A stretch of DNA of 64,000 bases, taken from Bacteroidales bacterium. Its GTDB lineage: Bacteria > Bacteroidota > Bacteroidia > Bacteroidales > F082. Every line of letters begins with the position of its first letter. The first letter of the stretch is position 1. Positions 4,591 to 44,222 of this stretch are shown piece by piece. Made by a program: the position numbers and the translations under genes. The DNA is taken from NCBI GenBank assembly GCA_030683155.1, contig JAUXMV010000015.1, positions 1-64,000 of the forward strand, in the 5' to 3' direction. The notes under the pieces were generated by a model that did no database searches, was not told the DNA's origin, and saw only the letters and a list, made by a program, of their open reading frames with translations.

Positions 4591-4710
4591 TTAGCTGCAT
4601 TGTCCTAGTAGAACCCAGATAATCACAAAAACTACAATGGTGCCCAAGCAGCCGCCACCTAATTTCGATGCTCCGTATCCTGAAATTAATCCCCTAAATA
4701 AATTATTCAT
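4591..4710 (-). CDS. Small Gly-rich membrane peptide, 39 aa
   Basis: This ORF is below the track's length cut-off. It starts MNNLFRGLISGYGASKLGGG, continues through a hydrophobic segment (residues ~22-36, GTIVVFVIIWVLLG) and ends QCS. It looks like a single-pass membrane peptide with a short amphipathic, glycine-rich N-terminus. A -7 box TACTTTTG lies about 90 nt upstream on the same strand. The reading frame has clear protein-like composition in otherwise AT-rich spacer DNA, and there is no competing ORF. Function is unknown. It could be a conserved small protein of Bacteroidota, which a tblastn search would show. Confidence 0.6.
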   Translation of the reverse strand: MNNLFRGLISGYGASKLGGGCLGTIVVFVIIWVLLGQCS

Positions 4711-4798
4711 TTGTAATTATGTTTATTAAGTGTTAAGCTACAGATTTTTAATATTTCAAAGGTGAACAATTCCAACAGTGAATCATTATACAATTCAA

Positions 4799-4806
4799 CA
4801 AAAGTA
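4799..4806 (-). promoter_or_regulatory. Candidate -7 element for the 39-aa peptide
   Basis: The minus strand reads TACTTTTG, a perfect match to TAnnTTTG, 88 nt before the start codon at 4710. No convincing -33 box was seen. Confidence 0.4.
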
Positions 4807-4943
4807 TTGCATTCTTCACATCTTTATGTTTTCTTTTCGTTGAAGGGTACCACTAAATTCAAGATAGTCTAATGGTAAATTTAATCGCTGCTTTGCCAAA
4901 GTACTGCTATTAAAAATTCCTTCTCCAAAAATTTATTTGCAGT

Positions 4944-5798
4944 TTATTTTTCCGCAAACTCTATCAACGCTTTGTTAAACTTCTTCGTTTCTTCCAGAAA
5001 CAGGCTATGTCCGCTTTTTTCGAAAGCAACAAGTTTAGATTTAGCAATACCTGCTTTCATTTGTTCGGCCAGGTCGAAAGAGCAGATTTTATCCTTTTTA
5101 CCGTGCAAAATCAATGTTGGAATGTTGATTTTTACAATATCAGGCCTCATATCTGTATCACGCAAAGCAACCAAACATTCGGCGGTTGCATGGGACGAAG
5201 CGCTCAAACCAATCCCATTCAACCAATTGACCATTCCTTCATTTAATGAAGTCTCGGTTGCCGAAAATATCTTTGCAAAATCAGACAGAAGTTTTGGACG
5301 ATCTTCATTATTTTGTTTAATCAGTTCATCAACTGCACTTTGTAGTAGATTGAACGGGAAATCCTCACGCTGTGTCCAAATCGGGACTGCTGCTCCGGCC
5401 AAAACCAGTTTGGTTACATGTCCTTCATTGTATGCCGATACAAACCGGACAGCAATTGCACCACCCATAGAAAAACCAACCATCATTGCATCTTTTATAT
5501 CCAGTTTGTCCAAAATTCGCTTGATATCCAAGGCATGAATATTGTAATCGTAGGCTCCAAAAGGTTTGTCTGATTTGCCAAAACCTCTTAAAGTGATACC
5601 AATAACGCGAAAATTTTTATTTACCAGATCGTTGTATTGGTACTCATACATCTCGTCACTTAAAGGCCAACCGTGTATCAAAACAATGGGGTTGCCATTG
5701 CCTGCATCCGTAACGTGTAGGTTCACATTCGTTTCAACCTTAATGTATTCGGCTCTGGCCTTCTCTTTATGTGTTTTTTCTTTAATATTTTCCATCAT
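4944..5798 (-). CDS. Alpha/beta hydrolase
   Basis: The 284-aa protein has the alpha/beta-hydrolase fold. The oxyanion region is VLIHGWPLS, the nucleophile elbow is GFSMGG (Ser ~111), the acidic residue lies near ILHGKKDKIC, and the catalytic His is in SGHSLFLEE close to the C-terminus. The WP after HG and RGFGKSDKP resemble cofactor-free haloperoxidase/esterase members. The substrate cannot be told. There is no signal peptide, so it is cytoplasmic. Its start overlaps the stop of the 79-aa gene by 4 bases, implying translational coupling. It is the last gene of a likely four-gene operon (flavoprotein, baeRF, 79-aa, hydrolase). Confidence 0.88.
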   Translation of the reverse strand: MMENIKEKTHKEKARAEYIKVETNVNLHVTDAGNGNPIVLIHGWPLSDEMYEYQYNDLVNKNFRVIGITLRGFGKSDKPFGAYDYNIHALDIKRILDKLDIKDAMMVGFSMGGAIAVRFVSAYNEGHVTKLVLAGAAVPIWTQREDFPFNLLQSAVDELIKQNNEDRPKLLSDFAKIFSATETSLNEGMVNWLNGIGLSASSHATAECLVALRDTDMRPDIVKINIPTLILHGKKDKICSFDLAEQMKAGIAKSKLVAFEKSGHSLFLEETKKFNKALIEFAEK

Positions 5799-6034
5799 TT
5801 CATGTTTGGGTTCAGAGGATGTTGCTTTTTATATTTTTGCAACATCAAACTCAGCGATTCATAATAAGTTTTTAAAACATTCAGATTTATATCCGGATCT
5901 TCTTCATTGGGAACTGTCACCGGCATTTCTTCGATAAATTTGGAAAGCTCTGGATAATGCTCATGGATTGTCAATGTAATTTCCAGGATTTTTGAGTTCA
6001 AATCCTTTTCGAGTTCTTCGTTTGTCATGTCCAA
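5795..6034 (-). CDS. Small acidic helical protein of unknown function
   Basis: The 79-aa protein is predicted largely helical: an N-terminal acidic helix (MTNEELEKDLNSKI), a central turn VTVPNEEDPD, and a C-terminal helix ending in a basic tail. No Cys, membrane segment or signal peptide is seen. I do not recognise a family. It sits 6 nt after the baeRF gene and overlaps the hydrolase start by 4 nt, so it is almost certainly translated as part of that operon. It could be a partner or adaptor of one of its neighbours. Confidence 0.75.
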   Translation of the reverse strand: MDMTNEELEKDLNSKILEITLTIHEHYPELSKFIEEMPVTVPNEEDPDINLNVLKTYYESLSLMLQKYKKQHPLNPNMK

Positions 6035-6040
6035 CTTTTT

Positions 6041-7195
6041 TCAATATCGAAAGATTGCTGCAAGGCCTGTTTCCGAAGGTAATTTTTCTGTTGGCAGAAC
6101 CATAACCTGACCGCCCATTTTTGTTACTAATTCTGCCATATCGTCAAGCAAATCATCTACTTTCGGATTTGTTAAATCCTTTTTTTGTGTATTGCCTGTA
6201 ATCAGATTTGTTATTCGAACAGCAATCTTCCGGTCTGCTTCAATAAGAAGAGTATCAACTCTGCCTTCGACAGCAGCTAAAGCAACTTCCTTAATGTCAT
6301 CACTTCCTTTTCCATCTGCCTTTGCCTGCTCAAATCTTGAAACAAAACTGTCAAGTTTCATTAAATACACAGGTTCCATTATTTCCCAGGCAAGATTTAC
6401 AAGTTTATCAGCTGAAACAGATGTCGGGTTGATTGAAATGCTTTTGTCCAGCAGCAATGGATTTTTATTTACTTTTTGAAACAAGCTATGGTGTTCGGGC
6501 AAAGCTGCAAGAATAAGTGGCCAACCTTTAGGTTTTGAATATATATCGTAAATATTATTCGCAACCACTCGAAAAAACCGCTCAGCGTCTTTATCCACCT
6601 CATCTTTTTTACCACCATGACCGTGGTGCATACTTGTGCTTTCACCTCCTGTTCCACCGTAAGATGCAACCGTCGAATGCTTGTCGGTCAAATCGTCACC
6701 GAGTGCATCTGTTATGGTTCTTGGAATTCCAGCCATGATTTCTATCTCGTCAAGTGAATGGCGGTTACCTTCAAAAAGCCGGATATCATGAAGACTTAAG
6801 CCCAAAACATGATAGCGATCGGTCGATTGCAGATAATGCCTGAGAGGCTTCGTGTGAAAACTATCAGCCACAATTGCGACTTCTTCAACAGATACTGGAA
6901 AACCTACAATTTTAACAACTTCGTTAGCACTAAAAACAGCCAAACCATTTAATGTATGATTCCATAAACTGTCATCATTGACAAGGGCTTCCAAAGGTTC
7001 CAGATGTTTTTTTGCTTCACTGGCTGAGTATTTTTTTAAAAGCGATTCTTCCAATTGCTTGAGAAGGTTTTTAAATCTGATTGGATCCTGAAGATTTTCA
7101 GGATGACTTCGGTGAGTAGGCATGTAGAGAGAAAGGCATGGTTCCTGACTTATTGCCTGGAGTTCCTGGATGAATTCTTTACTTAGTAATTCCAT
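6041..7195 (-). CDS. baeRF-family protein (release-factor-like, family 3/7 type)
   Basis: The 384-aa protein matches the bacterial homologues of archaeo-eukaryotic release factor eRF1 (baeRF). Family-like features are the N-terminal LYMPTHR, QDPIRFKNLL, the H/G-rich loop MHHGHGG near residue 190, the VEGRVDTLL segment near 310, and the C-terminal AAIFRY. These proteins are thought to act on stalled or hibernating ribosomes, but the function of this subfamily is not proven. It has no membrane segment. The gene starts 15 nt after the stop of the flavoprotein gene and sits among a universal stress gene and a CheB gene, which suggests a stress or stationary-phase role. Confidence 0.8.
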   Translation of the reverse strand: MELLSKEFIQELQAISQEPCLSLYMPTHRSHPENLQDPIRFKNLLKQLEESLLKKYSASEAKKHLEPLEALVNDDSLWNHTLNGLAVFSANEVVKIVGFPVSVEEVAIVADSFHTKPLRHYLQSTDRYHVLGLSLHDIRLFEGNRHSLDEIEIMAGIPRTITDALGDDLTDKHSTVASYGGTGGESTSMHHGHGGKKDEVDKDAERFFRVVANNIYDIYSKPKGWPLILAALPEHHSLFQKVNKNPLLLDKSISINPTSVSADKLVNLAWEIMEPVYLMKLDSFVSRFEQAKADGKGSDDIKEVALAAVEGRVDTLLIEADRKIAVRITNLITGNTQKKDLTNPKVDDLLDDMAELVTKMGGQVMVLPTEKLPSETGLAAIFRY

Positions 7196-7210
7196 AGTTT
7201 TTCTTTTATT

Positions 7211-7882
7211 TTATATTTCTTCTATTGTAATTGCTTTTTTATCTATTCCCAAATTTGTCAATTGCTTTTGTATTGTATCCATCATGGGTGGTGGGCCACA
7301 TATATAATATTGCTTGTCAAAGCCGGCTATACTTTCCTTTAAGAAGCCTTCGTCTATTTGTCCGTGTGCATACCCGTCTGCTATTTCATCAGATAAAATG
7401 TTGATGAAATTTTCTCCCAACAACTTTTTAAATTCGAGGGCAAGTATGATATCATCTTTGGTTTTGTTAGCAAAAATGAGTTTGTTTCCACCTGTCTCAT
7501 TTTTTGATTGCAGATACCTGAAAATGCAAATAAACGGTGTGACTCCGGCGCCTCCCGCAATAAATACCCCTTCGCCCTTATACTCGATTGCACCAAAAAC
7601 ATCATGCAGAATCAGCTCGTCATTTTTGTCGAGTTGTTTCATTTCGTTGGTGACACCCTTGTGTGCAGGATAAGTTTTGATGATAAATTCAAGAAAATCA
7701 TTCTCAGGCAACGAAGTGAAAGTAAATGGTCTTTTTTCATCAGACCAACCGTCTTTGTTAATTGCAATTTCAGTTGCCTGTCCAGGATTGAAGTTGTATT
7801 TCTGAGGTCTTTCAGTTACAATTTGTAAAACATCGTGCGTGACGTGTTTGATTGATTTAATTTTTACGAGATGTTGTTTCAT
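7211..7882 (-). CDS. Ferredoxin-NADP reductase-like flavoprotein
   Basis: From MKQHLVKIKS the protein is 223 aa. The track start adds 17 residues that look untranslated. The FAD domain (~1-95) carries the RPFTFTS flavin-binding motif. The NAD(P) domain (~100-223) has GGAGVTPF and the terminal CGPPPMMD. There is no 2Fe-2S domain, so electrons must go to a separate partner, which is not visible here. It heads the operon with baeRF, the 79-aa gene and the hydrolase. The ATGTAAAACATGTAA-type motif lies 86 nt upstream of this start, which also favours it over the longer ORF. Confidence 0.87.
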   Translation of the reverse strand: MKQHLVKIKSIKHVTHDVLQIVTERPQKYNFNPGQATEIAINKDGWSDEKRPFTFTSLPENDFLEFIIKTYPAHKGVTNEMKQLDKNDELILHDVFGAIEYKGEGVFIAGGAGVTPFICIFRYLQSKNETGGNKLIFANKTKDDIILALEFKKLLGENFINILSDEIADGYAHGQIDEGFLKESIAGFDKQYYICGPPPMMDTIQKQLTNLGIDKKAITIEEI

Positions 7883-7968
7883 ATAAAAGTATTTCGTTTG
7901 TTCCTTAATGATGAATGGTGCTATTTTATTCATGAATTATGGAAAGGCGAAGTTCCGAACCATTTCAC

Positions 7969-7982
7969 TTACATGTTTTACA
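7969..7982 (-). promoter_or_regulatory. Shared 14-mer upstream of the flavoprotein operon
   Basis: Read on the coding (minus) strand this is TGTAAAACATGTAA, identical to the site upstream of the 11613 adhesin gene and in the same orientation. It ends 86 nt before the flavoprotein start. It is a partial tandem of the 9-mer AACATGTAA. A binding site for an unidentified regulator is inferred. Confidence 0.55.
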
Positions 7983-8092
7983 GAACTATCAGGAAAACTT
8001 ACATCATTCTCATGTTACATCGCATCATAGCTTAACAATTATTCAAACAAAAAACATGTAGTTATATACTTATTATGCTTTGCATGAGACAT

Positions 8093-8713
8093 TTACTTTT
8101 CGAAACTGAAACTTTCCTGATTTTCTTTTTTTTCTTTTCGAGCGATTCGTGCAATTTCTTTGGCAATATTTTCAGGCGAAAGAATAAAGTCGATGCACCC
8201 GCTGGCTATAGCGGATTCCGGCATGTCAGGATATGCTGCTGTCTCAGGTTTTTGAGCGATGGTAATGCCACCAACTTCCTTTATACCACAAAGTGCTTCT
8301 GCACCATCACCATCATAGCCTGAAACTATTACTGCGATTAATTTGCCGTCCCAATTCTGAGTGAGAGAGCGCATGAAAATAGTGATTACATCGGGCCATC
8401 CCCACGGTTTTGAGATGGGCTTCAGACGAAACTCTCCGTTAAGAACATGTAAATCACGTTTTTCAGGAATGATGAAAACATGATTAGGGACAATGTCTAA
8501 TTTCTCCCTAATCAGTCTGACAGGCATCTCAGTGTAACCCGGCAAAATTTGATGCAACATGGTGGCAACTATTCTAAGGTGATTAACTATTACGATTGCG
8601 ACACCCAGGTCGGATGGCAGATTTTTCAATAAACACGTATAGGCCTCCAGCCCTCCGGCCGAACCGCCTACACAGACGATTGGAAAGTCTTTTGCAGAGT
8701 TTCTCGTTTTCAT
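8093..8713 (-). CDS. Solitary CheB methylesterase-domain protein
   Basis: The 206-aa protein consists of one CheB catalytic domain. It keeps the Ser motif GGSAGG, the His in VNHL and the Asp in SGYDGDGAE, where classical CheB reads GMGxDG. There is no receiver domain, so it is not controlled by phosphorylation in the usual way. No chemoreceptor or cheR stands nearby; the CheB-CheR fusion at 1047-3986 is the only related protein. Its place between a universal stress gene and the baeRF operon suggests a non-chemotactic role. A spacer of 111 nt separates it from the universal stress gene on the same strand. Confidence 0.88.
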   Translation of the reverse strand: MKTRNSAKDFPIVCVGGSAGGLEAYTCLLKNLPSDLGVAIVIVNHLRIVATMLHQILPGYTEMPVRLIREKLDIVPNHVFIIPEKRDLHVLNGEFRLKPISKPWGWPDVITIFMRSLTQNWDGKLIAVIVSGYDGDGAEALCGIKEVGGITIAQKPETAAYPDMPESAIASGCIDFILSPENIAKEIARIARKEKKENQESFSFEK

Positions 8714-8824
8714 ATTTTATGTCTCCAAATCAGTCAGAAAAGTAAATCAACTTGTCTCTATGCCAGAATCGTATTTTCTTTCTGAGCTGCACTGTATTAT
8801 TGCATTTGTCAGCCGACTTCGTCT

Positions 8825-9310
8825 TTAATCTTTCTTTTTTGTTGGGATCAAAAACACTGGAATCCGGGTTTGTCTCAAAACTTCTTCTGTAACGCTTCCA
8901 ACCAGGATGTTTTCCAGCCATTTTTGACTATGGGAACCCATAACAATGATATCGGCTTTCATTTCGTTTGCAGTCTCCAAAATGGCGCCTGCAATGACTC
9001 CTTCATTTACAATTGTCCGGATATTCACATCCCCTAAATGTCGTTTGGTTTTGTCGAGGAAAAACTGTGCAGCATTTCTGAGTCCATCAACAGTATCAAG
9101 CTGCATTTGGGATGAATCAATGTATCCGGCAAAACCCATAACAGGCGAGAATCCGGTTGAAGTATAATACGTTGAATCGGTTATTACATGCAACAAAGTA
9201 ACTTCGGCGCCCATCGATTTTGCCATTGAGAAACCTTGCTCTGTTACCATTTGTGCTGTTGGGTTATAATCTACTGCAATCAGTACATGTCTAAATTGAA
9301 TTGTGTTCAT
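8825..9310 (-). CDS. Universal stress protein (UspA family)
   Basis: The single-domain Usp has 161 aa. The N-terminal strand is HVLIAVDYNPTAQM, and the nucleotide-binding end is VMGSHSQKWLENILVGSVTEEVL. The ATP-type motif is G-x2-G-x9-G-S/T; here the second Gly is Ser (GSHS), so ATP binding may be weakened. Proteins of this family form dimers and accumulate under starvation or redox stress. A regulatory motif and TTTGTAC element are found upstream (see 9356-9424), shared with the adhesin gene. Confidence 0.9.
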   Translation of the reverse strand: MNTIQFRHVLIAVDYNPTAQMVTEQGFSMAKSMGAEVTLLHVITDSTYYTSTGFSPVMGFAGYIDSSQMQLDTVDGLRNAAQFFLDKTKRHLGDVNIRTIVNEGVIAGAILETANEMKADIIVMGSHSQKWLENILVGSVTEEVLRQTRIPVFLIPTKKKD

Positions 9311-9613
9311 AATACAGGTTTATCTTTTTTAATTAATGATGTGATTTAGGGAGTACAAAATAATAGCGTAATTGCTTCCTGGTTGTTACAATAGTTTTAT
9401 AAAGAATTACATGATTTACATGTTTTGGTAAAAGCTGGAAGTCCAAAGATGAAGCCAAAAGACTGAAATAGCCAGAAGGAAATCCGATTATAATAACCTG
9501 GAATCAAAAGATGTAGGACGCAAATCAGATGTAAGAAAATCCGCGAAAGATGTAAGTTTTCCTCATAGTTCTGTAATGGAATCGAATGCTTATTGCCGCA
9601 CCTTTGACACTCT
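9311..9613. other. Divergent intergenic region, usp / AsmA-like
   Basis: Besides the usp motif, three GATGTA(A/G)G copies on the + strand (near 9509, 9528 and 9549) are spaced 19 and 21 nt apart, about two helical turns. They lie just upstream of the AsmA-like gene start at 9614. GCACCTTTG near 9596 resembles a weak -7 box for that gene. No gene is supported here. Confidence 0.35.
9356..9424 (-). promoter_or_regulatory. Tandem CATGTAA motif plus TTTGTAC upstream of the usp gene
   Basis: The minus strand reads AACATGTAAATCATGTAA (9424-9407), two 9-nt units, ending 96 nt before the usp start. After 47 nt comes TTTGTAC (9359-9353), a near match to the end of a -7 box. The adhesin upstream region has the same two parts at the same 47-nt spacing and in the same orientation. 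An activator-dependent promoter is inferred. Confidence 0.5.
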
Positions 9614-11224
9614 ATGAAACGAAATAAATTATTGAAAATCCTAGTTGGAATAGTCGCATTCTTTCTATTGCTCATACTTATAGCTGTTATTTTCATTGAG
9701 CCATGGACAGTGAAGAAAATTGAGTCAGCATTTAATAAAAATGCTGATAAATTTCACATGGAAATTGAGAATGTCAAAATCTCACTCATTAAATCAGGCA
9801 TAACGCTTAATAATGTTACCATTGTCTCAAAGCTTCAGAATGACAGTCTGACAAATTTAAAAGCTGAAATTGCTGCCATTGAATTCAAGGGTATTAAGCT
9901 TTTTAAAGCAATGTTCAAAAATGACGTCGAAGTCAGAGAAGTAAATATTTTCAACAGTCATGTTGCAGGAAAGTTCCCATTTAAGGGAAAAGCCGGGCCT
10001 GCTAAAGTTTCGCCCTTAAACATCAGAATCAAAAACCTGGTGTTTGATCGACTGGTTATAGACATAAAAGACGAAGTTACATCACAAGCTTTTTGGCTGT
10101 ATGATGCTTTTATAAATGTTTATGATTTACAGCTTGCTAAACTTGATACTATTTCAAAGGATATATTTAAGCAATTGGATTTCAATGCACAACAATACAG
10201 AACTGTTACATCTGACAGCATGTACACGATAAAATCTGTCGGAATAAACTACTCTGCAACTTCAAATTTCCTGGTTGTTGATAGTTTTTCTGTTCAACCG
10301 AATTACAGTAATTATGAGTTCACTGCCCGGCATCAATTTGAAATTGATCGCATTGAAGCCGGGCTCAGCCAGATATCATTTCGTGAATTTTCTGCCACTG
10401 AATATATAAAATCAGGAAACCTTATAAGTTCATATATCGAAATCGGAAAATTTGAGATGAGTGTTTTTCGTGATAAACGCAAAGAATTCAACCATGTAAA
10501 CAAACCTGCATTTCAAGAAATACTCTATAACTATCCGGGTAAAATCGGCATTGATTCTATCGGTATTTTGGACGGAGGTATAACCTATACCGAACATGCC
10601 GAAAAAGCTAACGAGCCTGGCATTATCACTTTTGATAGGTTTAATGCGCTAATTTTCAATATTTTAAATGATACCATTTACAAAACAAAAAAAGCTTATA
10701 TCGGATTCAATGCTGAAGCTTTTTTAATGGACAAGGCAAAATTGACTGTACAAATGAAGAGCCGGCTATTCGACAGTCAGAACACCTTTGCTGTGAATGG
10801 CAAGCTTTTAGGAATTGAAGCAATGGAATTGAACCCAATTTTGGAGAAAAATGCATTCATCTACGCGACATCGGGAAAAATTGAGGCTATGAATTTTAGT
10901 TTTACAGCGAACAACACAAAATCTTCCGGACAAATGAAGCTACTTTATGAGGGATTGAATGTTGCTGTTAAGAATAAAATGACGGATGATACAACTGCTG
11001 TAAAAGAGCGGGTGATATCTGTCATTGCCAATATGTTAATCATGCATTCGAACCCTATGCCGGACGAAGAGGCGAGACAGGGAGTGATTGTTTTCGAAAG
11101 AAATCCTGAGAAAAGTTTTTTCAGTTACTGCGCCAAATCACTTTTTTCGGGCATCAAAAGCAGTGTTATAAAAAGCCCGGATACACCTAGGAAGAGCAGT
11201 TTGCAAAAAAAGGACAACCCATAA
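9614..11224 (+). CDS. AsmA/DUF748-like membrane-anchored protein
   Basis: The 536-aa protein has one N-terminal membrane helix (residues ~8-30, KILVGIVAFFLLLILIAVIF) followed by a long beta-rich periplasmic part with no Cys motif. The opening VKKIESAFNKN..FHMEIENVKISLI...GITLNNVTI is typical of AsmA/TamB-like proteins, in which repeated beta strands form a hydrophobic groove linking inner and outer membranes. Those proteins affect lipid transport and outer-membrane biogenesis. Family placement is by overall pattern and not by a single motif. It is divergent from the usp gene and precedes the adhesin locus by ~390 nt without obvious coupling. Confidence 0.6.
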   Translation: MKRNKLLKILVGIVAFFLLLILIAVIFIEPWTVKKIESAFNKNADKFHMEIENVKISLIKSGITLNNVTIVSKLQNDSLTNLKAEIAAIEFKGIKLFKAMFKNDVEVREVNIFNSHVAGKFPFKGKAGPAKVSPLNIRIKNLVFDRLVIDIKDEVTSQAFWLYDAFINVYDLQLAKLDTISKDIFKQLDFNAQQYRTVTSDSMYTIKSVGINYSATSNFLVVDSFSVQPNYSNYEFTARHQFEIDRIEAGLSQISFREFSATEYIKSGNLISSYIEIGKFEMSVFRDKRKEFNHVNKPAFQEILYNYPGKIGIDSIGILDGGITYTEHAEKANEPGIITFDRFNALIFNILNDTIYKTKKAYIGFNAEAFLMDKAKLTVQMKSRLFDSQNTFAVNGKLLGIEAMELNPILEKNAFIYATSGKIEAMNFSFTANNTKSSGQMKLLYEGLNVAVKNKMTDDTTAVKERVISVIANMLIMHSNPMPDEEARQGVIVFERNPEKSFFSYCAKSLFSGIKSSVIKSPDTPRKSSLQKKDNP

Positions 11225-11612
11225 GTTAAAATGCATCTTCGATGCTGTTTATCCCTCTGTTCTACTTCATTCTAAAGTTAAATCTATGAGAGATATATAT
11301 TGCAAAACTCCAATTAAGAAAATATGCAGCATGGTGTCTAAATGTAACCACATTTATCAGCAAAGGTATTTTCAAATTAATCTTCTTTGAATATCAATCA
11401 TTCTTTTGATACTTCTTCTTAACCCCAAACTTCATCTAACTTTTGTACTTTGATGGATAGCAGTTAAAAAAAATGATTCCCTTGATGATCTACATGATGA
11501 TTTTTTAAACATGTAAAACATGTAACCTTTATACAGTTAAGTGTAACCCTTTTCGGTCTGAATAGGCTGAACTTTGTACCAAATATTTTTTCACACTTAA
11601 TACCCGGTTAAA
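11225..11612 (+). other. Long leader and regulatory region of the adhesin gene
   Basis: No gene is seen in these 388 bases. Near the 3' end lie the tandem motif (11510-11525), the nonamer ACAGTTAAG (11533-11541), and AACTTTGTACC (11571-11580), where TTTG is probably part of a -7 box. The nonamer equals a known LytTR-type half-site, but one copy may be chance. Transcription would begin near 11583, leaving a leader of about 30 nt. Confidence 0.45.
11510..11525 (+). promoter_or_regulatory. Shared tandem motif upstream of the adhesin gene
   Basis: CATGTAAAACATGTAA contains two CATGTAA units at a 9-nt period. Its last 14 bases are identical to the site before the flavoprotein operon. It ends 87 nt before the start codon, and TTTGTAC (11573-11579) follows after 47 nt, exactly as at the usp gene. 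Confidence 0.55.
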
Positions 11613-14600
11613 ATGAAAAGTAAACTTCTACTTCTTTTAACAATCATTGCTCTTCTATCTTTCCGAAATAATAATTTTGCACAGTCGCCTAACCTTGGGG
11701 CTGCCTCAAATTTTGCATTATTTACGGCAGCTGGAGAATTAACAAATGTTGGAGCATCAGTCGTCACTGGCGATGTTGGAACATATGTAGGAGCTCTCAC
11801 AGGTTTTCCTCCCGGAATTGTAATAGGAGAAATTTATCCTGTTGGTCACCCGATTTTAGCACAAGCTGCAATCGATCTGGGGCTCGCCTATACAGATTTG
11901 GCATCAAGACCATGTGATGTTGTGTTAGGAACTCCATTTGGAAATGGACAAACACTTAACCCGGGCGTTTATTGCCTCGGCAGTGCAGCAACACTGAATG
12001 GCGAATTAATATTAGATGGACTTGGAAACCCGGATGCGCTATTTATCATTCAGATAGACGGGGCATTAGCAACAAGTGGAAACTCGAGTATTACACTCAT
12101 TAATGGAGCTTCGATCGACAATGTATATTGGCAGATAAATGGTGCATTTACGCTGAATGAAGGTTCAATTTTCAGAGGCATAATAGTCGCTAATGGTCAG
12201 ATTGAATTGCTGGAAGCTTCAACGCTTTATGGCCAGGCGCTCTCAATAGCAGGTGCTATTCTTCTGCATAATAATTTAGTTACAATTCCGATGCCACCTG
12301 AGGCACCAGAGGTGACAGTAATTCAACCTGACTGCCTTGTACCTACTGGTACCATCATCGTAAACTCACCTTTGGGACCAGGCTTAACCTATAGTATAGG
12401 TGCAGGCTATCAATCAAGTTCTATTTTCAGTTCTCTGGCACCTGGCACCTACACTGTTACAGTTATGAACGCTGACGGTCTTATTTCAGAGTCAATATCT
12501 GTTACGATCAATGCCCAACCTATAACACCTCCCCCACCTGAGGTTGTGGCACTTCAGCCGGATTGTTTTATCAATACCGGTACTATCACCGTCATTTCTC
12601 CTTTGGGTCCCGGCTTAACCTACAGCATTGGCGGAGCTTATCAGTCAAATCCTGTTTTTACAAATGTTTTGCCTAATTCATACAACGTCACTGTGATGAG
12701 TGAAGATGGTTGTATCTCGCCGGCTACGATTGTCATTATCGAGCCTTCATTGGATGCGCCCGAAGCACCGCAGGTGGTGGCACTTCAGCCGGATTGTTTT
12801 ATCAATACCGGTACTATCACCGTCACTTCTCCTTTGGGTCCTGGCTTAACCTACAGCATTGGCGGGGCTTATCAGTCGAATCCTGTTTTTACAAATGTTT
12901 TGCCTAACTCGTACAACGTCACTGTGATGAGTGAAGACGGATGTATTTCTCCCGCTACCATCGTAATTATTGAGCCTGCATTGGATCTTCCTCTAGCGCC
13001 TCAGGTTGTGGCACTTCAACCGGATTGCTTTATCAATACGGGTACAATCACCATTACCTCACCCATAGGGCCAGGTTTAATGTACAGCATTGGCGGGGCT
13101 TATCAGTCCAATCCTGTCTTTACAAATGTTTTACCAAATACATACAATGTCACTGTGATGAGTGAAGACGGCTGTATTTCGCCCGCTACAATCGTAATTA
13201 TTGAGCCTGCTTTGGATCTTCCACTAGCGCCTCAGGTTGTGGCACTTCAGCCGGATTGTTTTATCAATACCGGAACCATCACTGTTACTTCACCTACAGG
13301 GCCTGGTTTAACGTATAGCATTGGCGGGGCTTATCAGTCCAATCCTGTCTTTTCAAATGTGTTGCCCAATACTTACAACGTAACCGTCATGAGTGAAGAC
13401 GGCTGTATTTCTCCCGCTACAATCGTAATTATTGAGCCTGCTCCTGAAACACCGGAAGCACCGCAGGTGGTGGCGCTTCAGCCGGATTGCTTTATCAATA
13501 CAGGCACTATCACTGTTACCTCACCTATAGGTCCAGGTTTAACGTACAGCATTGGCGGGGCTTACCAGTCCAATCCTGTATTTACAGAGGTCTTACCCAA
13601 TTCGTATAACGTCACTGTGATGAGTGAAGATGGTTGTATATCGCCTGCTACGATTGTAATTATCGACAACCAACCTTTAACGCCAATCGCAGATGCTGGT
13701 CCGGACAGAACTATTTGCCAGAACACAAGTACGCAGATTGGCTCAGAAGCCATTTCAGGAAATACCTACAGTTGGAGTTCTGATCCGACTGGCTTTACCT
13801 CAAACCTCGCGAATCCAACGGTAAGTCCAATGGTAGAAACTACTTACATCTTAACAGTAACCACAATACTCGGTGGCTGTCAAAGTACAGATTCAGTTAC
13901 AGTTTTTATTGACATGCCTCCTTTGATTATCGCGCAACCTGTTGATCAGATAGTATGTGAAGGTGAATCAGTAAGTTTCATTGTAATTGCAAGTGGTACT
14001 AACCTAAGCTATCAATGGAGAAAAGGATTGGTAAATCTAACTAACGGAGGAAACATATCAGGCGTCAACTCTTCTATACTGACAATAGTTCAGGTTACAC
14101 TCTCTGATGCAGCAAACAATTATAATGTTGTCGTCAGCGGAATCTGTTTACCTGCTGCTGTTTCTATTGATGTATCACTTATTGTAAATCCGATACCTGT
14201 AGCCATTGCAAGTAGTAATTCTCCGGTCTGTGAAGGCGATCCAATACAATTGACAGCGGAAACAGTGCAGGGAGCATCTTATTACTGGACGGGTCCAAAT
14301 GGTTTTACTTCGACAGAACAAAATCCATATATTTCTTCAACAACAGCATTATACTCGGGCAGTTATACATTGGTTGTCACAGCAAACGGATGCGCTTCAA
14401 CAGCAACGACGCTTATCGTTTTCATCAACGAATGCTGTATTAATATTCCTGAAGGCTTCTCACCGAACGCTGATGGAATAAACGACTATTATGTTATCAG
14501 GGGGATTGACTGTTATCCCAATAACTCAATTATTATCTATAACCGATGGGGCAACAAAGTATATGAAGCCAGTCCATACAAAAATGACTGGGATGGCAGA

Positions 14601-14717
14601 ACAGATTTTGGTATCACAATCGGCGGAGATAAATTGCCTGTTGGAACCTACTTCTATCTTTTGAATTTGGGCGATGGTTCAGATATTATTAAAGGCTTTA
14701 TTTACCTTAACAAGTAA
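11613..14717 (+). CDS. Ice-binding-fold (DUF3494) adhesin with SprB-like repeats and type B T9SS tail
   Basis: The 1034-aa secreted protein has a signal peptide (1-23). A DUF3494 beta-solenoid as in ice-binding proteins follows (~25-225), with NLGAASNFALFTAAGELTNVG, TGDVGTYVGALTGF, NPGVYCLGSAATLNG and ALFIIQIDGAL. Six 77-aa repeats follow (~234-695), each with QPDCFINTGTITV and YNVTVMSEDGCIS, related to SprB repeats. Ig/PKD-like domains come next (~700-930). The C-terminal domain (~935-1034) is of the gliding-motility type (PEGFSPNADGINDYY...IYNRWGNKVYE). That tail is a type B T9SS signal, whose export usually needs a PorP/SprF partner; one follows directly. DUF3494 domains in non-polar bacteria may serve adhesion; ice binding is not shown. 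Confidence 0.88.
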   Translation: MKSKLLLLLTIIALLSFRNNNFAQSPNLGAASNFALFTAAGELTNVGASVVTGDVGTYVGALTGFPPGIVIGEIYPVGHPILAQAAIDLGLAYTDLASRPCDVVLGTPFGNGQTLNPGVYCLGSAATLNGELILDGLGNPDALFIIQIDGALATSGNSSITLINGASIDNVYWQINGAFTLNEGSIFRGIIVANGQIELLEASTLYGQALSIAGAILLHNNLVTIPMPPEAPEVTVIQPDCLVPTGTIIVNSPLGPGLTYSIGAGYQSSSIFSSLAPGTYTVTVMNADGLISESISVTINAQPITPPPPEVVALQPDCFINTGTITVISPLGPGLTYSIGGAYQSNPVFTNVLPNSYNVTVMSEDGCISPATIVIIEPSLDAPEAPQVVALQPDCFINTGTITVTSPLGPGLTYSIGGAYQSNPVFTNVLPNSYNVTVMSEDGCISPATIVIIEPALDLPLAPQVVALQPDCFINTGTITITSPIGPGLMYSIGGAYQSNPVFTNVLPNTYNVTVMSEDGCISPATIVIIEPALDLPLAPQVVALQPDCFINTGTITVTSPTGPGLTYSIGGAYQSNPVFSNVLPNTYNVTVMSEDGCISPATIVIIEPAPETPEAPQVVALQPDCFINTGTITVTSPIGPGLTYSIGGAYQSNPVFTEVLPNSYNVTVMSEDGCISPATIVIIDNQPLTPIADAGPDRTICQNTSTQIGSEAISGNTYSWSSDPTGFTSNLANPTVSPMVETTYILTVTTILGGCQSTDSVTVFIDMPPLIIAQPVDQIVCEGESVSFIVIASGTNLSYQWRKGLVNLTNGGNISGVNSSILTIVQVTLSDAANNYNVVVSGICLPAAVSIDVSLIVNPIPVAIASSNSPVCEGDPIQLTAETVQGASYYWTGPNGFTSTEQNPYISSTTALYSGSYTLVVTANGCASTATTLIVFINECCINIPEGFSPNADGINDYYVIRGIDCYPNNSIIIYNRWGNKVYEASPYKNDWDGRTDFGITIGGDKLPVGTYFYLLNLGDGSDIIKGFIYLNK
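12312..13697 (+). repeat. Six tandem 231-bp coding repeats
   Basis: The repeat phase is exact: the codons preceding CAG/CAA-CCG/CCT of QPDC fall at 12321, 12552, 12783, 13014, 13245 and 13476, always 231 bp apart. Copies 2-6 are nearly identical in DNA (for example cattggcggggcttatcagt recurs). Copy 1 is diverged. Such repeats can expand or contract by recombination, changing the stalk length of the surface protein. Confidence 0.9.
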
Positions 14718-14758
14718 TTCAGCAAAACCAAGGAATAACCCTAATAATAAAATACAAG

Positions 14759-15700
14759 ATGAAAACCCTAAATATAATTCTGTTCGTAATGATACTAACC
14801 TTTGTGGGTCTGACAGTGCATGCACAGCAGCTTCCAATGTTTACGCATTACATGAATAATACCCTGGTGGTAAATCCGGCTTATGCAGGTAGCAGAGAAG
14901 CGCTGACAGTAACGGCACTCCATCGTTCTCAATGGGTTAACTTCCCTGGTTCACCTAAAACACAAACACTGACTTTGCATTCTCCAATAAAATATAAACA
15001 TATTGGATTAGGTTTAGCTGTATTTAATGATAAAATCGGGCCGACAAATAATTCGTCAGTTTTTGGATATTATTCATTTATTATGCAGGTATCCGAAAAA
15101 TCAAAGTTAGCGCTTGGTTTAAGTGGTGGTATCAATATTTTTCAGGCCAATTTAAGTACGCTTAACCTGGATGAAAAGGTTGACCCGGCCTTTATGTACA
15201 ATATCAACAATCATGTGATGCCCAATTTTGGTTTTGGTGTATATTATTCAAGGGAGCGCTTTTATGCAGGTCTTTCAGTGCCTAATTTATTAGAAAACAG
15301 TTATGCTGTTACTGAGCAGGCAAATAAAAACACATTGATAGGAAAAGAAAAAAGGCATTACTATTTTATTGCTGGTTCGATGCTTCGACTCACTGATAAT
15401 CTCGATTTTAAACCAACAGGCCTAATCAAAATGACGTTAGGAGCGCCTATTGAAGCCGATCTTACTGCTTCTTTCGTGATCATGAAGAAACTCTTGGTAG
15501 GTGCAATGTTCCGTACGGGTGATGCCTTTGGTGGTTTGGTCGGACTGGATATTTCTGAGCAATTGCATATTGGTTATTCATTCGACTATTCTTATGGTTT
15601 AAAAACGTTTAAATATCATCAAGGTAGTCATGAAATATTACTAAGATATGATTTCATTTTTACCAACAGAAGGCAAATTCATTCTCCAAGATATTTTTAA
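14759..15700 (+). CDS. PorP/SprF-family outer-membrane protein
   Basis: The 313-aa protein has a signal peptide (1-22, cleaved after VHA) and the family hallmark QQLPMFTHYMNNTLVVNPAYAGSR, then QWVNFPGSP and a beta-barrel-like series ending ILLRYDFIF. PorP/SprF proteins sit in the outer membrane and are linked to T9SS secretion. Those encoded next to a type B CTD protein probably help export or anchor that one substrate. It lies 41 nt after the adhesin gene and 19 nt before the OmpA-type gene, making a three-gene unit. Confidence 0.92.
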   Translation: MKTLNIILFVMILTFVGLTVHAQQLPMFTHYMNNTLVVNPAYAGSREALTVTALHRSQWVNFPGSPKTQTLTLHSPIKYKHIGLGLAVFNDKIGPTNNSSVFGYYSFIMQVSEKSKLALGLSGGINIFQANLSTLNLDEKVDPAFMYNINNHVMPNFGFGVYYSRERFYAGLSVPNLLENSYAVTEQANKNTLIGKEKRHYYFIAGSMLRLTDNLDFKPTGLIKMTLGAPIEADLTASFVIMKKLLVGAMFRTGDAFGGLVGLDISEQLHIGYSFDYSYGLKTFKYHQGSHEILLRYDFIFTNRRQIHSPRYF

Positions 15701-15719
15701 TTCTTTAAAAAAAAATATA

Positions 15720-18194
15720 ATGAAAAATTTACTTATTCCCATTCTCATATTTGCAGGGATCAGCATGAACGCTATTGGGCAAGAGAAATCCAGTAAAGAA
15801 TTAAAAGGCGACAAATACTATTTCAATTACTCCTTTGATAAGTCCATTGACTTGTACAATCGGGCCAATCAATTGACCCCGGAAGGCCAGCGTAATTTGG
15901 CAGTAAGTTACAGCAACATTGATAAAACGATTGAATCTGAAGAGGCGTATTTAAAACTAATAAACACAGGAAAAGACATTTTACCTGAAGATTACTACAG
16001 TTATTCAATGATTCTAAAGTCAAATGGCAAAAATGCCGAATCGCAAAAATGGATGGATAAATTTATTGAATTAAAACCTAACGATTTACGTGTTAAAGAT
16101 TATCTATCGCATAAAGCTTCATTGCCGGAATTAAAAAAGGATTTCGGGAAGTATAAAATAGTACATCAAAATATCAATAGTGAGGCGCTGGATTTTGGAA
16201 CCAGTTACTATAAAGATCAGATCGTTTTTGCCTCCACCAGATCGACACCAAGGATGATCGTCCGTAAATACAACTGGACAGGAAAACCCTTCTGGGATAT
16301 CTACGTTTCTGATGTGGATGGCGGCCAGTTAAAAAGCCCGGTTATTTTTGATAAAAGCATGAATGGCAAATTGCATGATGGGCCGGTAAGTTTCAACCAT
16401 GATGGCACGCAGATTGCTTACACAAAAAACAATTATGATCATAAACGAAAAGATGAGGTGATTGAATTGCAAATTTGGCTCAGCAGCTTCAAAGATGATC
16501 AATGGACTGATCCTGAACCATTTGTTCTCAACAATGTTAAATATTCCGTCGGACAGCCATTTCTGACTTCAGATGGAAGGACGATGTACTTTACAAGTGA
16601 TATGCCTGGAGGCTTTGGTGGTACGGATATTTACAGAATTACCAGAAACGCAGCTGGTGTGTGGGGAAAGGCAGAAAATCTGGGCAACCAGATCAATACC
16701 GAGGGTGATGAAATGTTTCCATTCCTGGAACAAAAAAGCAATACCTTTTTCTTCAGCTCAAATGGTCGTTTCGGCCTTGGAGGGCTCGATATGTTTACCA
16801 GCGTTATGAACGAAACAGGATTTGAGCAAGTTACCAATATGGGGAGTCCGTTAAATACCCAATACGATGATTTTGCGCTCATTATAAATAACAAAATGAA
16901 CAAAGGTTATTTCTCTTCCTCAAGACCCGGTGGCAAAGGAGGCGATGACATTTATGCATTTGATGTTTTGATCCCTGACATTATTGAAGATGTTGATTTT
17001 ATTGTAAAAGCACCCCTTAACATTCCGTATAAACCCATCATGAGAGAATATTTTCCGCTTAGAAACTATATTTTCTTTAAAGCAGGAACAACTGAGATAC
17101 CAGCACGTTATGTGTTACTCAAAAAAGATCAGGTCAGGGGATTTAAAGAAGATCAGCTCGAAAGCATCGCTTCTTTGAATGTCAATGCGCGTTCAGCCCG
17201 CCAAATGACGGTTTATTACAACATTTTAAATATTCTGGGCGACAGGATGGGGAAAAACCCATCGTCATCCATCAAGCTGGTTGGCTCATCTGCCCAAGGA
17301 CCTGAACAGGCACTCAAAATGGCTGAATCTTGCAAGAATTATCTCGTGGACGTATTCGATATAAACCCATCGAGGATTCTTGTAGAAGGACGCAATAAAC
17401 CAAAAATTCCTTCAGAAAAAGTAGGCGGCAAGCTTGAACTTGAGTTGCTGCGTGAAGAAGATGAAAGGGTATCCATCGAAAGTGCTACACCGGCTATATT
17501 GAATCAATTTTACAGCGGCAATGAAAGCATGCCTTTCGAACCTGTTCAAATTGTGAATGGTCAGGAAAATTCAGTAGATGGTTTTGCTACTTTCAATGTG
17601 GCTGGGGCGGAAAAAACACTCAGGTCATGGGCTTTGAAACTCGAAGGCGAAAATGGTGAAGTCCAACATTTTGGACCATTCACGCAAGAAATGGTTGAAA
17701 TTGATCAAAGAAGTATTTTGGGAGATAATCTTAAGCACAACTATAAGGTGACTATGACAGGCCAAACCAAATCTGGCGCGGTCATTACCAAAGAGTCAAA
17801 CCTGCAACTTGAGCTTCTGCCTCCAGTTACCGGTCCTGAAGTAACTAGATTCAGCATCATTTTTGAATTTGATGACTCAAGATCTATTTCTATCTATGAA
17901 AAATATCTGACTGATGTGGTAGTGCCAAAAGTGTCTTCTGGCGGAAGTCTGATTATCCATGGTTTTACAGATGTTATCGGCGAAGTAGAGCACAACAGAA
18001 AATTGTCCATAGCAAGGGCTACTGAAGTAAAAAACATCATTGAAAAAGGTCTTTCAAATGCCGGTATAAAAGATGTTAAACTCGATGTGCAAGGTTTCGG
18101 CGAGAATATCGATACTGCTCCTTTCGAAAACTTGTTGCCTGAAAGGCACTTTTATAACAGAACTGTTATTATCGATATCATTCCTCCTCAATAA
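15720..18194 (+). CDS. PorE-like OmpA-family protein (TPR, PD40, two OmpA-like domains)
   Basis: The start MKNLLIPILIFAG at 15720 gives a clear signal peptide; the track start adds 24 residues that overlap porP. The 824-aa protein has TPR-like helices (~25-140), then PD40 beta-propeller repeats (~150-430; MYFTSDMPGGFGGTDIY, FFFSSNGRFGLGGLDMF, GYFSSSRPGGKGGDDIY). An OmpA-like fold with weak motifs follows (~440-590), then a beta domain, then a C-terminal OmpA-like domain (~711-824, FEFDDSRS...GFTDVIGEVEHNRKLSIARA) likely to bind peptidoglycan. This layout resembles PorE of the T9SS, which links PorP to the wall. Two OmpA-like modules in one protein are unusual. Confidence 0.85.
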   Translation: MKNLLIPILIFAGISMNAIGQEKSSKELKGDKYYFNYSFDKSIDLYNRANQLTPEGQRNLAVSYSNIDKTIESEEAYLKLINTGKDILPEDYYSYSMILKSNGKNAESQKWMDKFIELKPNDLRVKDYLSHKASLPELKKDFGKYKIVHQNINSEALDFGTSYYKDQIVFASTRSTPRMIVRKYNWTGKPFWDIYVSDVDGGQLKSPVIFDKSMNGKLHDGPVSFNHDGTQIAYTKNNYDHKRKDEVIELQIWLSSFKDDQWTDPEPFVLNNVKYSVGQPFLTSDGRTMYFTSDMPGGFGGTDIYRITRNAAGVWGKAENLGNQINTEGDEMFPFLEQKSNTFFFSSNGRFGLGGLDMFTSVMNETGFEQVTNMGSPLNTQYDDFALIINNKMNKGYFSSSRPGGKGGDDIYAFDVLIPDIIEDVDFIVKAPLNIPYKPIMREYFPLRNYIFFKAGTTEIPARYVLLKKDQVRGFKEDQLESIASLNVNARSARQMTVYYNILNILGDRMGKNPSSSIKLVGSSAQGPEQALKMAESCKNYLVDVFDINPSRILVEGRNKPKIPSEKVGGKLELELLREEDERVSIESATPAILNQFYSGNESMPFEPVQIVNGQENSVDGFATFNVAGAEKTLRSWALKLEGENGEVQHFGPFTQEMVEIDQRSILGDNLKHNYKVTMTGQTKSGAVITKESNLQLELLPPVTGPEVTRFSIIFEFDDSRSISIYEKYLTDVVVPKVSSGGSLIIHGFTDVIGEVEHNRKLSIARATEVKNIIEKGLSNAGIKDVKLDVQGFGENIDTAPFENLLPERHFYNRTVIIDIIPPQ

Positions 18195-40970: not shown

Positions 40971-41462
40971 TTAAATTTTAATACGTTGCAAAATCTCCTG
41001 CCTTTTTTCATCAAGAAATTTTGTTAAAAAACCGAAAGCTATTTCCAGATTTTTTTGTGCCATTTGAGTTAGTTCTTCTTTGAAGTCCCATTCATATCCC
41101 CGAACGTGTAAAAGCCATGCTTCGGGCACTTTACCATATATTTTCTGACAAAGATCAATCACAAATGAACAGGAAACTGCATGCATTGAGAATTCAACCC
41201 TTGCATCGGAAGCTTCAACTTTTGTGAAAGAGTAATCTTCAATATCCTCTTGCGAAGCATCTACAAAAACAACAAGTGTTTTATCTGAAACTGCCGCCGC
41301 ATCTTCAATATTAAGCTGATAGTTACAATCGGTTGATAGCTGTGGAAATGGATTTTCGATCAGCCAGTTTTCAAGCATTTGAACAAAAGCAGCGCCAAGG
41401 CCGTCATCCTGTCGGCCAGGATTGCCATATCCATATACAAGTATCCTGCTGTCTGAATCCAT
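40971..41462 (-). CDS. hoxW: [NiFe] hydrogenase maturation protease
   Basis: From MDSDSRILVYGYGNPGRQDDG the protein is 163 aa; the track start overlaps hoxH. It has the family N-terminus (YGYGNPGRQDDGLG), an acidic metal ligand (Asp in VFVDAS) and a later His (MHAVSCSFVIDL). These proteases sense nickel in the large subunit and remove its C-terminal peptide. The start lies 1 nt after the hoxH stop, so translation is coupled to that of its substrate. Confidence 0.9.
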   Translation of the reverse strand: MDSDSRILVYGYGNPGRQDDGLGAAFVQMLENWLIENPFPQLSTDCNYQLNIEDAAAVSDKTLVVFVDASQEDIEDYSFTKVEASDARVEFSMHAVSCSFVIDLCQKIYGKVPEAWLLHVRGYEWDFKEELTQMAQKNLEIAFGFLTKFLDEKRQEILQRIKI

Positions 41463-41463
41463 T

Positions 41464-42918
41464 CTATTGTGATACTTTTCTATCGATAACCTGCTCATTG
41501 GCGTCGAGAAGGGTTATCTCGAGCGGCATTTTTCCAAGTGCATGTGTTGCGCAACTCAAACAAGGGTCATAGGCACGAATTGCAACTTCAACAGCATTCA
41601 TCATACCTTCTGTAATAACTTCTTTTCCAGTCATAACAGCTTTGGCTACATGATTGACTGAACGGTTCATGGGCTCATTGTTGTTTGTTGTCGAAACAAT
41701 AAGGTTTGCCATTTCAATCTGATCATTATCGTTTATGCGATAGTGGTGGAAGAGTGTTCCGCGTGGTGCTTCAATAAGGCCCACACCTTCTTTTTGCTTG
41801 GTTCCTTTCGTTACAAGGTCATCACCTAAGATATCCGGATCGTTGAGTAATTCTCTGATCATTTCGGCAGCATGAAGTGTCTCGATAAGGCGTGCATAAT
41901 GCATATGCATGCAATGATTGTTTGGCTTGCCAAAGGTCATAGCCTTATAAATCTCAAATTCAGCCTGAGCCAGTGGTGATGGTATAAAATCAACTGTATT
42001 AAGCCTTGCCAAAGGACCTACACGATACCAGCCCTGTTCTTTACCATATTCTTTCAGATAAGGGAATTTCATATAACTCCATGATTTCACCTCTTCTTCA
42101 ATATAGTTTGTGTACTCCTGATAATCAATGTCATGGAGTATTTTCTTTCCATCAGCATCCACGGCTCTGAGCACGCCATGATAAAGATCGAGCGCACCGT
42201 CTTTTCTTACTAAACTCAAGTGATTACTTGGGAAATAAGCGAAATTATCAATGAAATCCTTGTTGGCAAAGTAATAGTTTTTAAAGAATTCCAAAGCTTC
42301 CTGAGCCCAGCTTACCATTTTATCAGCATTAAGCGGGTCGGCACCTTTTAGAAATTCATCTCGTTCCTCTATACTAAGACTTTTGTTAATCCCACCTGGA
42401 ATTGCTCCAGTTCCATGAATTTTTTTACCGGCTGTGGCACGGATTATTTCCTGTCCGAATTTACGCATCATTACGCCCTGAACAGCTAGTGCAGGATTCG
42501 TCAATGCGATACCAATAATATTTCTTATTGCCGGGTCACCATCAATTCCAAAAAGGAAATCGGGAGCACTAAGATGGAAAAAGTGCAGCACATGCGACTG
42601 GAAGAACTGGCCATAATGCATCAGACGTCGCATTTTTTCGCCTGTTGCTGTTAAACCATGACCAGTTCCGGCGCCAACAATTACATCCAACGCTTTCGCT
42701 GCTGCCAAATGATGGCTCACAGGACAGATTCCACAAAGTCTTTGAACGAGTACCGGAGCTTCCCAATAGGGTCTGCCCTGCACAAAACGCTCAAATCCAC
42801 GAAATTCAACAATATGCAGCCGGCTTTGCTTTATTTCTCCTTTGTCATCCATGAAGATGGTGACTTTACCATGTCCTTCGACACGGGTTACAGGTTCTAT
42901 CGTAATTTTCTTCGACAT
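41464..42918 (-). CDS. hoxH: NAD-linked [NiFe] hydrogenase large subunit
   Basis: From MSKKITIEPVTRVEGHGKV the protein is 484 aa, close to the ~488 aa of Ralstonia HoxH. The nickel-iron ligands are present: RLCGICPVSHH at the N-terminus and DPCLSCATH at the C-terminus. After the His there is a 25-residue tail (ALGKMP...VSQ), which HoxW must remove after nickel insertion. VTRVEGHG and the overall order fit group 3d, the bidirectional NAD(P)-linked type. It is cytoplasmic. hoxY precedes it by 16 nt. Confidence 0.96.
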   Translation of the reverse strand: MSKKITIEPVTRVEGHGKVTIFMDDKGEIKQSRLHIVEFRGFERFVQGRPYWEAPVLVQRLCGICPVSHHLAAAKALDVIVGAGTGHGLTATGEKMRRLMHYGQFFQSHVLHFFHLSAPDFLFGIDGDPAIRNIIGIALTNPALAVQGVMMRKFGQEIIRATAGKKIHGTGAIPGGINKSLSIEERDEFLKGADPLNADKMVSWAQEALEFFKNYYFANKDFIDNFAYFPSNHLSLVRKDGALDLYHGVLRAVDADGKKILHDIDYQEYTNYIEEEVKSWSYMKFPYLKEYGKEQGWYRVGPLARLNTVDFIPSPLAQAEFEIYKAMTFGKPNNHCMHMHYARLIETLHAAEMIRELLNDPDILGDDLVTKGTKQKEGVGLIEAPRGTLFHHYRINDNDQIEMANLIVSTTNNNEPMNRSVNHVAKAVMTGKEVITEGMMNAVEVAIRAYDPCLSCATHALGKMPLEITLLDANEQVIDRKVSQ

Positions 42919-42934
42919 GATTTGTTTTGTTAGA

Positions 42935-43483
42935 TTAGTCAAATTTCACAACTTCGTATGGCAACTTCATCGGGTCTCCTGTAAGAAGCGCTACAAGGGC
43001 ATTCCAGATAAGATCAGCACTTGGAGGACATCCTGGCAGAAAGTAGTCAATTTTTACGATTTCGTGACACGGATAAACTTTGTCGAGAAGCATTGGCAGC
43101 TCATCGTCATTTGGTAAAATATGGCTTTTGTTCAATTGAACTGTTGGTCCGCCTATATATGCTTCATGCAGACACTCCTCAACCGGAATTCCGTTGCGCA
43201 TGGCTGGAAGCCCACCCATGATGGCACATTCGCCCAATGAAATAAGTATCTTGCAATTCTTTCTGAAAGAACGCAAAACTTCCACATTCTCGCTGTTGCA
43301 GCATCCGCCTTCAATGATACCAATATCTACAGGTTTGGTAAAGGTTTTAATGTCATCAACAGGAGATTTGTTAAATTCAACCAATTCGATCAGTTGAAGA
43401 ATTCTTTCGTCAATATCCAGAATTGACATATGGCAGCCGAAACATCCGGCAAGCGAAGTAGTCGCTAATACAGGTTTACTCAT
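42935..43483 (-). CDS. hoxY: NAD-linked hydrogenase small subunit
   Basis: The 182-aa protein has no Tat signal and a single proximal [4Fe-4S] cluster. Ligands lie in LAGCFGCHMS, LGECAIMGG and PGCPP; a further GGCCNSEN is seen. This short form is typical of HoxY in group 3 hydrogenases. A strong Shine-Dalgarno AGGAGG (43491-43496) lies 7 nt before the start, which is uncommon in this phylum. It is the electron link between HoxH and HoxU/F. Confidence 0.95.
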   Translation of the reverse strand: MSKPVLATTSLAGCFGCHMSILDIDERILQLIELVEFNKSPVDDIKTFTKPVDIGIIEGGCCNSENVEVLRSFRKNCKILISLGECAIMGGLPAMRNGIPVEECLHEAYIGGPTVQLNKSHILPNDDELPMLLDKVYPCHEIVKIDYFLPGCPPSADLIWNALVALLTGDPMKLPYEVVKFD

Positions 43484-43500
43484 TGTTATTCCTCCTATTG

Positions 43501-44196: not shown

Positions 44197-44222
44197 TGGA
44201 ATTGATTTTTCAGTTTTCTAAA

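Follow-up and report, generated by a model that had tools for sequence, protein, structure and literature searches.

A 14-mer repeated in the first 64,000 nucleotides of contig JAUXMV010000015.1 of a Bacteroidales bacterium (assembly GCA_030683155.1; this whole stretch is called the window) is, as judged from sequence alignment, the distal half of a larger composite promoter module of 65 bases found across the phylum Bacteroidota. The module is probably an activator-dependent promoter read by an AraC-type protein, which would govern a regulon of stress and envelope genes with input from a kinase and a receiver. Most likely, stress and cell-surface genes are switched on together by this uncharacterised AraC-type protein. 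The architecture of the promoter, its distribution, its targets and the co-occurrence and linkage of the AraC-type gene come directly from sequence analysis. The stress and envelope regulon is real, phylum-wide and apparently undescribed.

Architecture and extent of the module

The original prediction placed one 14-mer before a flavoprotein operon and a surface adhesin gene and a variant before a universal stress protein (usp) gene. All three were found, TGTAAAACATGTAA at 7982-7969 (-) and 11512-11525 (+) and TGTAAATCATGTAA at 9420-9407 (-), with distances to the ATG of 86, 87 and 96 nt, respectively. TTTGTAC followed 47 nt on at the adhesin and usp genes, as had been noted. Within the window, 3 matches to the 14-mer at up to 2 mismatches were present against 0.68 expected, a modest enrichment that is only suggestive. 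The whole 4.7-Mb genome was then searched by pattern and by profile. Exact TGTRAAWCATGTAA occurred in 8 copies, against 0 for the reversed control, and chance frequency was not seen. Seven of the 8 copies were located upstream of genes; the remaining one, on contig C56, fell inside a gene and was set aside as a coding coincidence. Outside the window, TGTRAAWCATGTAA preceded, on contig C7, a gene for a protein of 105 residues, behind which lies a CHASE3-like kinase gene. On contig C37 it stood before the gene for an lmo0937-family protein, before that for a CsbD protein and before an lmo0937-YtxH pair.

Alignment of sites from this genome and its relatives revealed that a third, promoter-proximal TGTAA follows the 14-mer after 16 nt, and TTTG after 47 nt. 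The third TGTAA had been missed earlier, as had the site of an AsmA-like gene and the genome- and phylum-wide extent of the module. Both elements were present at the adhesin and usp genes and at the other non-coding genome sites, the flavoprotein 14-mer excepted. The 16/47 spacing was kept in 17 of 18 composite sites, and in the remaining one both elements were shifted by 1. The proximal TGTAA and TTTG were either both present or both absent, with locus L039 as a partial exception; it carries a TTCG variant of the -7 box, as does the flavoprotein operon. The module thus reads TGTGAAWCATGTAAC, a direct repeat ATGTAAC 21 bp on in the -33 region, and TTTG, the -7 box, 26 nt further. The conserved frame in the alignment was AATGTGTGAAWCATGTAACTT...AAnTTATGTAAC...TCACCTTTGYA.

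The best internal similarity was a direct repeat at 21 bp (0.60), compared with 0.34 for an inverted arrangement and 0.40 for a 9-bp period. A tandem of 9-nt units, as proposed originally, was therefore not upheld as the repeat: the two 9-nt units are two boxes within one half-site, and it is this half-site, of about 15-17 bp with its two boxes, that is repeated. A CRP/FNR-like palindrome reading of TGTGA-N6-TAAC was rejected on the same comparison of inverted with direct similarity. A sigma-54 promoter was also rejected, as no GG was present at -24 in the sequences inspected.

In the seed set, TTTG was invariant and an A stood four bases before it in 15 of 17 sites, while the first T of TAnnTTTG was degenerate. 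TTTG lay exactly 47 nt on in 84 of 123 pattern matches, and 46 nt on in 8, among the matches listed. The -7 element of Bacteroidota is TAnnTTTG (PMC7366714), and the TTTG or TTTGTAC of the module corresponds to this box of the primary sigma factor (sigma-ABfr), which would place the proximal TGTAA at about -33. These features support the suggestion of an activator-type site at a fixed distance from a downstream box, which TTTGTAC would provide as a -7 element.

With a profile built from sequence only (R1), 21 sites were detected at E<0.01 in the genome of origin (best E=4.5e-17), nearly all just upstream of genes. Their targets include CsbD, lmo0937, YtxH, OmpA, Usp and ice-binding adhesins. 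A pattern scan of 85,462 named genomes returned at least 117 loci, nearly all in Bacteroidota. Bacteroidales, Flavobacteriia, Chitinophagaceae and Saprospiraceae were represented among the matches listed, and these shared a single spacing save for one chance-like match in an archaeal record. Prolixibacter bellariivorans and Proteiniphilum acetatigenes were cultured carriers of the module among the same matches. In a record labelled Myxococcales (L112), a composite site was accompanied by an AraC gene of Bacteroidota type; the record is probably a mislabelled or mis-binned contig.

Ice-binding-like adhesins were the commonest genes adjoining 236 distinct sites (42), followed by CsbD (24), OmpA (22), MlaE permease (13), lmo0937/DUF5670 (11), YtxH (8), cupins (6) and the AraC-type regulator itself (5); Dps-like ferritin (4), Usp (3) and GH130 (3) were the rarest of those listed. 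The typical targets of a general stress regulon were thus represented by CsbD, YtxH, lmo0937, Usp and Dps-like ferritin. The core of the original proposal, a new regulon that joins the stress block and the adhesin, is thereby supported.

Candidate regulator and alternative explanations

The best and a strong candidate for the regulator is an AraC-family protein of about 187 residues with an Atx1-like N-terminal domain. In the genome of origin it is encoded at C37:66901-67455. It recurred in the site neighbourhoods at 22 loci, and its gene had composite sites upstream at five loci. Taking at least 280 bits as the threshold for a strong orthologue, all 10 relatives with one had at least 2 sites, compared with 3 of the 27 others (37 relatives; p=8e-7). 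Of the 25 genomes with sites in the phylum sample, 24 had a relative of the protein, and the association of gene and sites held within four families (Mantel-Haenszel p=1.7e-9). Of 174 sites, 26 lay no more than 1.1 kb from the AraC-type gene, in 20 genomes, where 0.27 were expected.

The protein has a C-terminal double helix-turn-helix of AraC type (HTH_18, E=1.4e-15, above the curated cut-off). In an AlphaFold2 model (predicted local distance difference test score, pLDDT, 88) this domain resembles MarA, AdpA and AraC, and the N-terminal domain has the beta-alpha-beta-beta-alpha-beta order of Atx1/HMA-like folds. Of the Atx1-type MxCxxC, mostly MVSxRC is left, with an invariant Cys (Cys13), and this suggests a metal or thiol signal. 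None of the NCBIfam equivalogs compared with the protein reached its cut-off.

A stand-alone receiver of 144 residues occurred at 20 loci in the site neighbourhoods, often with a hybrid histidine kinase gene between it and the AraC-type gene. Among the 9 relatives in which a strong AraC orthologue coincided with 8 or more sites, 8 had this receiver. A domain search found no DNA-binding domain in the linked receiver, which was accordingly rejected as the DNA-binder. The receiver at L055:4429-4863 and its orthologues share a strongly conserved short C-terminal tail, KMEKELNWYMERM. This receiver belongs to a stress-gene island of the genome of origin (C37:41900-70200, loci L054 and L055) with at least 8 composite sites. 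The island contains, in a run, genes for an AraC-type regulator, a PAS hybrid kinase, the 144-aa receiver and a second AraC-type regulator, and this order recurs in relatives.

For binding, activation, the role of the kinase and receiver, and the signal, we infer the following scheme. The short AraC-family protein would bind both direct half-sites, TGTGAAWCATGTAAC and AAnTTATGTAAC, 21 bp apart, and recruit RNA polymerase to the house-keeping -7 box TTTG. Genes for CsbD, lmo0937, YtxH, OmpA, MlaE, Usp, Dps and ice-binding adhesins would be activated in this way and, in several genomes, the gene of the AraC-type protein itself. The hybrid histidine kinase and the stand-alone receiver, often adjoining the AraC-type gene, probably supply the signal.

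Another regulator could read the sites instead, either a response regulator of the OmpR, LytTR or NarL type or an unlinked factor, the AraC-type gene being merely a clustered target; we consider this unlikely. Clustering of targets would by itself give some linkage, but among DNA-binding families only the AraC-type one recurs to this extent near the sites, and within families the sites can be predicted from whether the AraC gene is present. The hybrid kinase and receiver track the richest regulons; the receiver, however, lacks a DNA-binding domain, and a 21-bp direct repeat over -33 is AraC-like and unlike a LytTR or OmpR tandem. No linked gene was found for the OmpR- or LytTR-type regulator first suggested; the gene that tracks the sites encodes an AraC-family protein. 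Several results weigh against the AraC-type protein as regulator. In the assemblies of genomes G022 and G222 there are two good sites each but no such protein, which also favours a different factor. These composite sites (G022:C72, G022:C8, G222:C28 and G222:C77; L225-L228) could reflect missing assembly, mis-binned contigs or another regulator. With contigs that are short, or sites placed at the ends of contigs, loss or mis-binning may account for this. Under strict filters, 7 of the 19 strong-AraC genomes in the phylum sample had no site, while G041 and G046, with 6 to 8 sites, contain only a distant relative of the protein. The protein profile was also seeded from site neighbourhoods, which introduces a mild circularity.

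It is very improbable that an alternative sigma factor of the extracytoplasmic function (ECF) type reads TGTAAC as a -35 element and drives the regulon. Other phyla as a rule rely on sigma factors for their general stress responses, and TGTAAC resembles the AAC-type -35 element of ECF factors; the downstream box, however, is the house-keeping TTTG with nAnn before it, and the 26-nt spacing is too long for an ECF -35/-10 pair. The more distal TGTRA...TGTAAC is at least as conserved, and a sigma factor would not need it. Chance recurrence of an AT-rich word can practically be dismissed. The enrichment within the window alone is modest and one genome copy lies inside a gene, but the count of 8 against 0 genome-wide, R1 E-values down to 4.5e-17 and the rigid spacing refute chance, as do the phylum-wide recurrence, the conserved footprints and scores far above those of shuffled sequences.

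Sites and genes in the window

The window contains four clear sites, at the flavoprotein operon, usp, a divergent AsmA-like gene and the adhesin gene, and a probable fifth. Bit scores were calculated with a profile stripped of the window rows. They were 33.1 for the adhesin site, 24.5 for the AsmA-like gene, 11.5 for the whole site of the flavoprotein operon (R1 E=0.59) and 10.3 for usp. Shuffled windows gave a mean maximum of -2.9 bits, and 1 of 120 reached 10. All four sites exceed this background, and three of them have conserved footprints in other genomes: upstream comparison, as had been suggested, showed those of usp, the AsmA-like gene and the flavoprotein operon to be conserved in the congener G003 and in the Prolixibacteraceae genome L133.

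The adhesin promoter matched R1 at 11507-11579 (E=3.7e-12). Its distal half-site TGTAAAACATGTAAC is at 11512-11526 (+), the proximal TGTAA at 11542-11546 (+), 21 bp after the distal TGTAA and over the -33 region, and the presumed -7 box TTTG, fitting TAnnTTTG (PMC7366714), at 11573-11576 (+). The target gene (11613-14717, +) encodes an ice-binding-like (PF11999) repeat adhesin with a type IX secretion C-terminal domain. At 11613-18194 (+) the adhesin, with about five near-identical repeats, is followed by genes of PorP/SprF-like and OmpA-like type, and an entire operon for surface adhesion may therefore be driven by the regulon.

The usp promoter matched R1 at 9425-9353 (E=8.9e-9), with the distal half-site TGTAAATCATGTAAT at 9406-9420 (-), the proximal TGTAA at 9386-9390 (-) and the presumed -7 box TTTG at 9356-9359 (-). 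The universal stress protein gene (PF00582) lies at 8825-9310 (-). A gene for a CheB-type methylesterase domain protein (8093-8713, -) stands behind it on the same strand after a 111-nt gap and is probably co-transcribed with it. Divergent from the usp site is the composite site of the AsmA-like gene (9542-9606, +; R1 match 9545-9607, E=0.0015), with a distal TGTAA at 9551-9555, a proximal TGTAA at 9572-9576 and TTTG at 9603-9606. Its target (9614-11224, +) encodes an AsmA/DUF748-like protein of 536 aa, the DUF748 match being below the curated cut-off.

At the flavoprotein operon the predicted site was real and its register was wrong. The first TGTAA of the 14-mer is the proximal repeat (7978-7982, -), and the true distal half-site, TGAGAATGATGTAAG, lies at 7998-8012 (-), with conservation in both G003 and L133; the congener does not keep the 14-mer's second TGTAA. 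No TTTGTAC had been seen here because the true half-sites are 8012-7998 and 7982-7978 and the -7 box is a weak TTCG (7948-7951, -), where TTTG stands elsewhere. The start at 7882 is the conserved one, and the ATG at 7933 is not kept in the congener. The operon (4944-7882, -), whose co-transcription we infer from spacing, comprises genes for an NAD/FAD flavoprotein and a baeRF-family protein, a small open reading frame (ORF) and an alpha/beta hydrolase gene.

The probable fifth site (4756-4820, -) has the order TGTGAAGAATGCAA, TATAA and TTTG (4759-4756) and matched R1 at 4825-4754 (E=0.04). With the stripped profile it scored -1.0 bits, near the shuffled background; its G003 counterpart is stronger (E=2.8e-4). 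Behind it lies a 39-residue glycine-rich, membrane-like ORF (4591-4710, -), without a Pfam match, whose DNA is conserved in G003 and L133. Elsewhere in the window, 40971-46031 (-) resembles, from the translations only, an operon for a bidirectional NAD-linked [NiFe] hydrogenase with a maturation protease.

Comparison with known systems

In the open-access literature on stress and AraC-type regulation in Bacteroidota, we found no earlier description of the module or the regulon, and in the open-access literature no described master regulator of general stress for this phylum, one of the most abundant among bacteria. We regard it as an even call whether the module represents a phylum-wide general stress response of Bacteroidota run by an AraC-type activator in place of a sigma factor, with a metal-chaperone-like sensor domain and a hybrid-kinase/receiver phosphorelay, in which stress protection would be coupled to surface adhesion. 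One switch would then control both ice-binding-type surface adhesins and stress proteins, and many genes whose function is unknown would be assigned to a regulon. With a promoter module that can be searched for, a candidate regulator in a defined gene neighbourhood and about twenty targets in each genome, the question can be put directly to the test in cultured strains carrying the module.

CsbD, YtxH, Dps-like and lmo0937-family proteins are members of the SigB regulon of Bacillus and Listeria, with which the targets of the module overlap. A paper on SigB mentions both CsbD and YtxH (PMC7824861). Unlike SigB, no sigma factor was found for the module, its activator site lies upstream of a house-keeping -7 box, and its targets include adhesins, OmpA and an Mla permease. 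Promoter motif 2 (PM2) of Bacteroides thetaiotaomicron is a second promoter motif linked to stress genes, whose regulator is not known (PMC7366714). PM2 is near-palindromic with elements at -10 and -30 (PMC7366714), whereas the module consists of direct repeats that precede a standard -7 box. LytTR- and OmpR-type sites are, like the module, direct repeats at a fixed distance upstream of a promoter; the module differs in its linked AraC-family regulator and in its two-box half-site of about 15-17 bp as the unit.

At araBAD, AraC of Escherichia coli binds to direct half-sites (I1/I2) separated by about 21 bp, of which the proximal one lies over the -35 region. The module has this I1/I2-type arrangement, with the proximal half-site over -33, and the candidate shares the AraC-family C-terminal domain. 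The N-terminal domain of the candidate is Atx1/HMA-like, whereas that of E. coli AraC is an arabinose-binding cupin. E. coli AraC serves one sugar pathway, whereas the module is coupled to the Bacteroidota -33/-7 promoter and has dozens of targets.

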